From NCBI GenBank assembly GCA_015661185.1, contig JACVXU010000009.1, forward strand, positions 1 through 38,248: a DNA stretch of 38,248 nt, in the 5' to 3' direction. Of this stretch, positions 5,307-5,820 are shown in pieces. The stretch is from Bacteroidota bacterium (GTDB lineage: Bacteria > Bacteroidota > Ignavibacteria > UBA10030). Made by a program: the position numbers and the translations under genes. The notes beneath the pieces were generated by a model that was given only the letters and a program-made list of their open reading frames with translations, searched no databases and was not told where the DNA came from. The first letter of the stretch is position 1, and every line of letters begins with the position of its first letter.

Positions 5307-5375
5307 GGTCAGGTTTCCAGTGGGGTGCGAAAACCGGTTCGGTTGGTCGGGTTACCGCTAAGTTCGAAACGAAGC

Positions 5376-5465
5376 TCCGATTCGACTCTCGCCGCACGTC
5401 ATTTGCTATTGCGGAGAGGGAGGGATTCGAACCCTCGATAGAAGTTACCCCCTATGCAGGTTTAG
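5376..5465 (-). repeat. Tandem copy of the 3' half of tRNA-Ser(GCU) plus its flank
   Basis: Bases 5376-5465 recur at 5467-5556 with a single mismatch (5407 versus 5498), a 91-base period. The copied unit starts in the downstream flank of the tRNA and ends inside the anticodon loop. It therefore contains only the tRNA 3' half: CTAAACC, the variable arm, the T arm and the acceptor strand (5412-5465). Without a 5' half it cannot fold as a tRNA. Confidence 0.85.
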
Positions 5466-5468
5466 TTC

Positions 5469-5621
5469 CGATTCGACTCTCGCCGCACGTCATTTGCGAT
5501 TGCGGAGAGGGAGGGATTCGAACCCTCGATAGAAGTTACCCCCTATGCAGGTTTAGCAAACCTGTGCCTTCAGCCACTCGGCCACCTCTCCGGTGAACGT
5601 GCGGCGAGAAACGTCGAATCG
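5469..5621. repeat. Inverted repeat bracketing tRNA-Ser(GCU)
   Basis: The left arm at 5469-5490 (CGATTCGAC then TCTCGCCGCACGT) is the exact reverse complement of 22 bases in the right arm at 5597-5621. The only difference is a 3-base insertion (AAC at 5610-5612) in the right arm. The tRNA gene sits inside the loop, 12 bases from the left arm and 5 from the right. The left arm is also present in the tandem copy (5378-5399). A decayed right arm follows the 5'-half copy (GACGTACGGCGG near 5705). Confidence 0.75.
5503..5591 (-). tRNA. tRNA-Ser(GCU)
   Basis: The acceptor GGAGAGG pairs fully with CCTCTCC. The anticodon arm ACAGGTTTGCTAAACCTG gives anticodon GCU, reading AGC/AGU serine codons. A long class II variable arm and the T arm GAGGG-TTCGAAT-CCCTC complete an 89-base gene; the discriminator is G and CCA is not encoded. 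It is the only complete copy at a locus that also holds separate duplicates of both halves. Confidence 0.95.
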
Positions 5622-5661
5622 AGAATCCCGCTTTATGTTATTCTGAACTCGAAGTGCGGGA

Positions 5662-5728
5662 CAAACCTCGCTGTGCCTTCAGCCACTCGGCCACCTCTCC
5701 AGAGGACGTACGGCGGAAAATGTCAAAT
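5662..5728 (-). repeat. Copy of the 5' half of tRNA-Ser(GCU) plus upstream flank
   Basis: Bases 5671-5700 are an exact copy of the first 30 bases of tRNA-Ser(GCU) on the minus strand, ending GGCTGAAGGCACAG. After a 4-base insertion (CGCT on the plus strand) CAAACCT continues the match up to the first anticodon base. The flank beyond 5700 also matches the intact gene's upstream flank imperfectly (GGACGTACGGCG versus GAACGTGCGGCG, then GTCAAATC versus GTCGAATC). This half therefore duplicated together with about 30 bases of flank. Confidence 0.75.
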
Positions 5729-5791
5729 CCTTGAGCTTAAACGATGTGGAAAGATATTGAAAAACTCGCGGAGATGCAATCCGAAAACAAA

Positions 5792-5820
5792 AAGCCCATC
5801 GGCAACGCGCCGATGGGCTT
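5792..5820 (-). terminator. Rho-independent terminator of the zinc-ribbon membrane protein gene
   Basis: A perfect 12-bp stem, AAGCCCATCGGC/GCCGATGGGCTT, closes a 5-base loop. On the minus strand it is followed by TTTGTTTTC. It lies 65 bases beyond the stop codon at 5885. Confidence 0.88.

Follow-up and report, generated by a model that had tools for sequence, protein, structure and literature searches.

An intact tRNA-Ser(GCU) gene as cargo of a double-hairpin insert in the anticodon loop of an older tRNA-Ser(GCU) gene

How does a complete tRNA gene come to lie between two separated halves of the same gene? This question is raised by the tRNA-Ser(GCU) locus in the window (the whole stretch of DNA that was analysed, 38,248 nucleotides). 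The intact gene (5502-5591, minus strand) is detected by ARAGORN, scores 60.8 bits in Rfam, and is the sole intact GCU copy found in its own genome (G000). All further parts of the locus lie on the same minus strand. Read in the orientation of the tRNA, the 5′ half is followed after about 70 nt by the full gene and this, after 36 nt, by the 3′ half. The 3′ half (5411-5465) comprises tRNA positions 36-90, starts with CTAAAC, is 100% identical to the intact gene, and is part of a 91-bp tandem repeat of 98% identity. The 5′ half (5662-5700) comprises positions 1-35 and ends in GTTTG, ahead of which a 4-nt insertion (CGAG) is found; together with its flank it forms a 59-nt repeat that is 86% identical. 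The break is the same in both halves: it separates tRNA positions 35 and 36, which are G34 and C35 in the anticodon GCT (G34/C35), and no target base is lost or duplicated. A sequence-only reading had described the half copies and their shared anticodon break, and its coordinates are right within one or two bases. The arrangement is far beyond chance. Same-strand partial self-copies within 700 bp are found for 12 of 41 tRNA genes examined in the genome, against none with reversed queries, none on the opposite strand, and 2 of 205 with queries of other isotypes.

The 196 bp between the halves (5466-5661) are organised as a double hairpin of a family named E here, with the tRNA gene in the loop of the second hairpin. 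The insert reads TCCCGC...GCGGGATTCTC, an arm, the whole tRNA gene, the complementary arm, and a GGAA end. Hairpin 1 and its linker (TCCCGC...GCGGGA TTCTC, 5621-5661) were located by pattern search. The left arm of hairpin 2 (GATTCGACGTTTCTCGCCGCACGT..., 5592-5620) is an inverted repeat of the right arm (5466-5501), which ends in ...GTCGAATCGGAA; in E, the right terminus is conserved as GGAA. As RNA, the region folds into a tRNA within a hairpin within a tRNA (z = -5.1). One compensatory C-G/T-A change separates the hairpin 2 arms of G000 and G003 from those of G001 and G007. Further arms lie outside the halves. The outer right arm (5373-5410), read as the older gene's flank plus the right arm of an earlier round, is 98% identical to the inner copy. 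Between the promoter and the 5′ half lies the outer left arm (5701-5733). It resembles the inner left arm, with 86% identity across the 59-nt repeat of which the 5′ half is a part. The putative tRNA promoter, TTG-N20-TATCTTTC, which we take to be Bacteroidota-like, was identified by sequence upstream of the outer 5′ half (5748-5779); the same motif precedes the tRNA-Ser in G001, G002, G004, G007, G012, and G022. Just upstream of this promoter, the minus strand also carries a strong terminator-like hairpin followed by a T-run (5792-5820).

Comparison with relatives tells the older gene from the newcomer. The G34/C35 break recurs in G001, G004, G007, G013, and G027, and an insert at this bond is present in three genomes, measuring 196 bp in G000, 191 bp in G001, and 190 bp in G007. 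When the insert is removed from G007, a seamless tRNA gene remains that is collinear with the same-genus genome G022 from the promoter through the next tRNA-Ser. In G001, the outer 5′ half has a deletion of 8 nt and is still connected with the ancestral promoter and the leader ...TTTCAGCACAC, a leader also found in G012. Because of this ancestral leader and the collinearity of G007 and G022, the outer halves are assigned to one older tRNA-Ser(GCU) gene and the inner intact gene is the cargo of the insert. The proposal that each half had been duplicated from the intact gene with its own outside flank is thereby reversed, as the intact gene is the newcomer. The suspicion of an integration footprint was well founded, as was the view of the anticodon arm as the point of breakage or insertion; the alternative of two independent duplication events has to be given up, since a single older gene supplied both halves. 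The independent assemblies UBA9647 and NC_groundwater_753 have the same architecture, which makes an assembly artefact unlikely. The outer left arm is absent from the ancestral-type flank in G001 and G012, and the presence of this extra arm between promoter and outer 5′ half in G000 suggests an earlier round of insertion there. Since the outer and inner 3′ halves are nearly identical while the outer left flank has diverged, a later tandem event or gene conversion may have contributed at this locus. The second-round insertions in G000 and G007 are not necessarily independent events. A pattern scan of the genome contigs returned 83 stretches; after filtering, a tRNA half with an element signature remained only in three (L184, L192, and L203), all of them tRNA-Ser loci of already known relatives. 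The pattern CACAGGTTTGTCC with one mismatch yielded mostly noise.

Alternatively, the repeats could stem from two ordinary tandem duplications, one of 91 bp (3′ side) and one of 109 bp (5′ side), that hit the same bond by chance, with no mobile element involved. Direct repeats do exist, and the 3′ repeat alone resembles a simple tandem duplication. However, in several genera the two junctions fall at the termini of E (TCCCGC and GGAA) and at a single tRNA bond, inverted repeats flank the intact gene, and the empty site is recovered by a single excision. The comparison of G022 with G007 largely refutes this explanation, and it is held to be highly improbable. Insertion of a mobile E with a tRNA cargo, which split an older tRNA-Ser(GCU) gene at G34/C35 in nested rounds, is with good confidence the explanation of the locus as a whole.

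E follows a fixed plan: TCCCGC, a loop, GCGGGA, the linker TTCTC, and then a covarying second hairpin with a GGAA end. The pattern TCCCGCN{8,30}GCGGGATTCTC gave 47 matches in 24 of 61 related genomes and none in the reversed control. The aligned copies form two adjacent hairpins, of which hairpin 1 and the linker are invariant, in part because the search pattern demanded both. Hairpin 2 lies outside the search pattern and shows changes on both sides in 13 of 25 pairs, i.e. compensation. E is thus a real family. With a covariance model, 16 copies were found in the genome G000 and E was detected in 33 of 41 relatives. Among 198 genomes sampled across the phylum, nine contain E, all in the same order as G000, and none was found outside this order. 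All 21 invariant residues of the E alignment (A1) are present in 5466-5661. Against the covariance model R1 the insert scores 17.7 bits (E-value 0.02 in 31 kb), which is weak because the model does not accommodate a 90-nt tRNA in the loop; its membership in E therefore rests on the arms and termini. A loop-free copy at the same tRNA bond in G027 reaches 42.8 bits, but this copy belonged to the training set of the model. No published description of such an element was found in the open-access literature, and the order-restricted double-hairpin family E is new.

The positions of E outside the focal locus point to tRNA genes as well. In three genomes, 16 of 35 copies have a tRNA gene at a distance of 150 bp or less, where 0.16 would be expected. 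A set of 97 unique copies was collected from model-found loci; these include tandem arrays and related loci, so that the following counts are not all independent. A tRNA gene is present within 300 bp of 51 copies. In 39 copies the GGAA end directly abuts tRNA sequence (28 displaced fragments and 11 intact genes); the TCCCGC end does so in only two. Direct repeats span 48 copies, compared with nine in the control, and 32 of the 48 are flush with an E end. Recurrent tRNA breaks at E are located in the D-loop, at 34/35 of the anticodon, in the variable loop, and at the gene ends. A simple E insertion is found at T34/C35 of tRNA-Arg(TCT) in G000. The pattern reaches beyond tRNAs, because at least six copies in G000 lie away from tRNA genes, in apparent displaced 5′ ends of serine/threonine kinase genes that were identified by eye from the translated start, without a family search.

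Several individual loci illustrate the variety of these arrangements. At L358-L360 and L362-L364 (contigs C352, C416, C327, C228, and C142 of G000), E lies between apparent displaced 5′-end fragments of such kinase genes and further copies of the kinase start, which was read by eye as MIG..SHYxILEKLGEGGMGVVYK. Tandem arrays of three to four units occur at L354 (G007:C35), L355 (G008:C4), and L356 (G008:C27), each unit consisting of a tRNA end piece, its flank, and one E copy. At L368 (G013:C10:61500-62500), E copies abut tRNA-Phe on both sides in inverted orientation. In G000, L265 (G000:C368:1-1300, 56-270) resembles the tRNA-Ser locus in architecture: the repeats TCCCGCAAAACTTC/GAAGTTTTGCGGGA flank tRNA-Leu(TAG) in inverted orientation, and a displaced 5′ part lies upstream of it. 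Upstream of the intact tRNA-Gln(CTG) gene at L259 (G000:C191), its 5′ end is repeated three times in a row as copies of 13-15 nt, and a palindrome follows each of them.

An anticodon loop bordered by a palindromic stem ranks among the classic attB sites (PMC8371274), which raises the footprint of a tyrosine-recombinase integrative element or prophage as an alternative. Partial restoration of the target is typical of such elements, and the focal insert likewise occupies the anticodon loop while the target is kept functional. It differs from them in having no integrase, in its size below 200 bp, and in the whole tRNA carried in a hairpin loop. The 18 matches to the integrase family PF00589 in G000, G001, G007, and G022 all lie outside the locus contigs (C133, G001:C100, G007:C73, and G022:C253, respectively). 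The ends of the insert are those of a small hairpin element and not of a prophage or integrative conjugative element, and E recurs at kinase genes also. Phage and plasmid matches are confined to the tRNA itself, by which a phage or plasmid origin was also rejected. A footprint of a tyrosine recombinase is accordingly highly improbable here. Group I introns share the anticodon-loop position; the insert differs in its small size, in containing a tRNA, and in lacking a group I core, the only Rfam matches being two tRNAs. Since the Rfam scan returns only tRNAs, a hammerhead or other known RNA was likewise discarded. A split or permuted tRNA of the Nanoarchaeum type was rejected because the gene is also present intact and its halves are decaying in relatives. 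RNA-primed copying of E, with the tRNA or its halves as primer, was considered because junctions lie at gene ends and at 34/35; it is unsupported because the 3′-end junctions carry no CCA.

If E is mobile, an enzyme would have to move it. One suggestion is a Y1 transposase (IS200/IS605, RAYT-like) acting through the hairpins, as with REP elements. Hairpin ends fit such enzymes, and the genome G000 encodes 14 Y1_Tnp genes, one of them 508 bp from an E copy. Against this, E adjoins only one of the Y1 loci examined, which is at a kinase-fragment cluster where E is expected anyway, and no transposase is generally linked to E; a Y1 transposase as the mover is rather doubtful. Like REP/REPIN sequences with their RAYT, E is short, non-coding, palindromic, and dispersed in tens of copies. 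In contrast to them, E is asymmetric, contains neither paired inverted REPs nor a GTAG or CGTC tag in its consensus, and so departs from the two inverted REPs with a conserved tetranucleotide tag of a REPIN. It also favours tRNA loops, can hold a whole tRNA gene, and is in general not linked to a transposase. The mitochondrial double-hairpin or repetitive hairpin-forming elements (PMC2800124) share with E two adjacent hairpins, insertion into genes including RNA genes, and an inferred mobility. This is a likeness only. E resides in a bacterial chromosome, differs in sequence, carries tRNA cargo, and is accompanied by displaced target copies.

A second suggestion invokes cleavage of the tRNA by a SegB-like GIY-YIG homing nuclease, with the halves as by-products of repair and E as a non-autonomous partner or a scar. 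SegB cuts tRNA genes and amplifies tRNA together with segB (PMC13096335). Features like those of this phage homing system are seen here, with GIY-YIG genes beside tRNAs and tandem tRNA-nuclease units in G013. For eight of 21 GIY-YIG ORFs a tRNA is found at a distance of 150 bp or less (expected 0.13), and such ORFs are placed between displaced and intact tRNA parts in G009, G012, G013, G020, G036, and G038, and at tRNA-Leu(CAA) in G000. The latter locus (L239, G000:C167:13300-16200) shows, at about 1480-1881, a tRNA-Leu(CAA) fragment, a small GIY-YIG ORF, and the intact tRNA-Leu(CAA). A GIY-YIG gene is found at the same tRNA-Ser in G013, G015, and G021. In G013 (L017, contig C5, 1502-2448), tandem units of 3′ half, GIY-YIG ORF, and double hairpin follow downstream of tRNA-Ser(GCU); the double hairpin in these units belongs to a second family and is not E. 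The small GIY-YIG ORFs gave nothing useful in NCBIfam and PHROGs. The focal locus differs from the phage system in being chromosomal and in having no nuclease gene in the mobile unit: no GIY-YIG ORF was found in the whole window, and in three genomes just a single E copy has a GIY-YIG gene within 1 kb. Cutting by such a nuclease is a rather unlikely origin of the halves. GIY-YIG nucleases and Y1 transposases are both candidate movers of E, tied to it only through proximity.

The T-arms of displaced tRNAs are often broken by another palindrome, in most at GTTC/GA; examples are L240, L248, L254, L256, and L262 in G000 as well as L005, L006, and L012. This site is the centre of the SegB motif RAWTSGAAC (PMC13096335). 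The palindrome possibly protects the displaced T-arm from a SegB-like nuclease; the coincidence of GTTC/GA with the SegB motif is a lead and not proof.

For the preferred reading, a mobile E with tRNA cargo, the following course is proposed. The targets of E would be tRNA gene loops, entered in either orientation. If the essential tRNA gene that is hit has a single copy, the cell would survive only if an intact copy arrived at the same time; at tRNA-Ser this may be supplied as loop cargo, at other sites as a tandem partial copy. Once restored, the tRNA would be open to a new insertion, by which the older halves would be pushed outward and decay, leaving nested layers. The original promoter, which precedes the dead 5′ half, is probably still the start of transcription. 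That a mobile element with an essential tRNA cargo inserts repeatedly in this nested manner, and that the joining of GGAA to tRNA sequence implies recognition of tRNA-shaped DNA or RNA, is put forward tentatively, with about as much to be said against it as for it and perhaps slightly more.

Such a course would represent a way to parasitise single-copy essential tRNA genes, in which the replacement is brought along as cargo, and would offer a natural system for studying how hairpin elements recognise tRNA loops. The association of E and GIY-YIG genes with tRNA genes gives a lead on free-standing homing nucleases in bacterial chromosomes. For the order itself, the activity of E would account for many of the tRNA fragments that lie beside tRNA genes.
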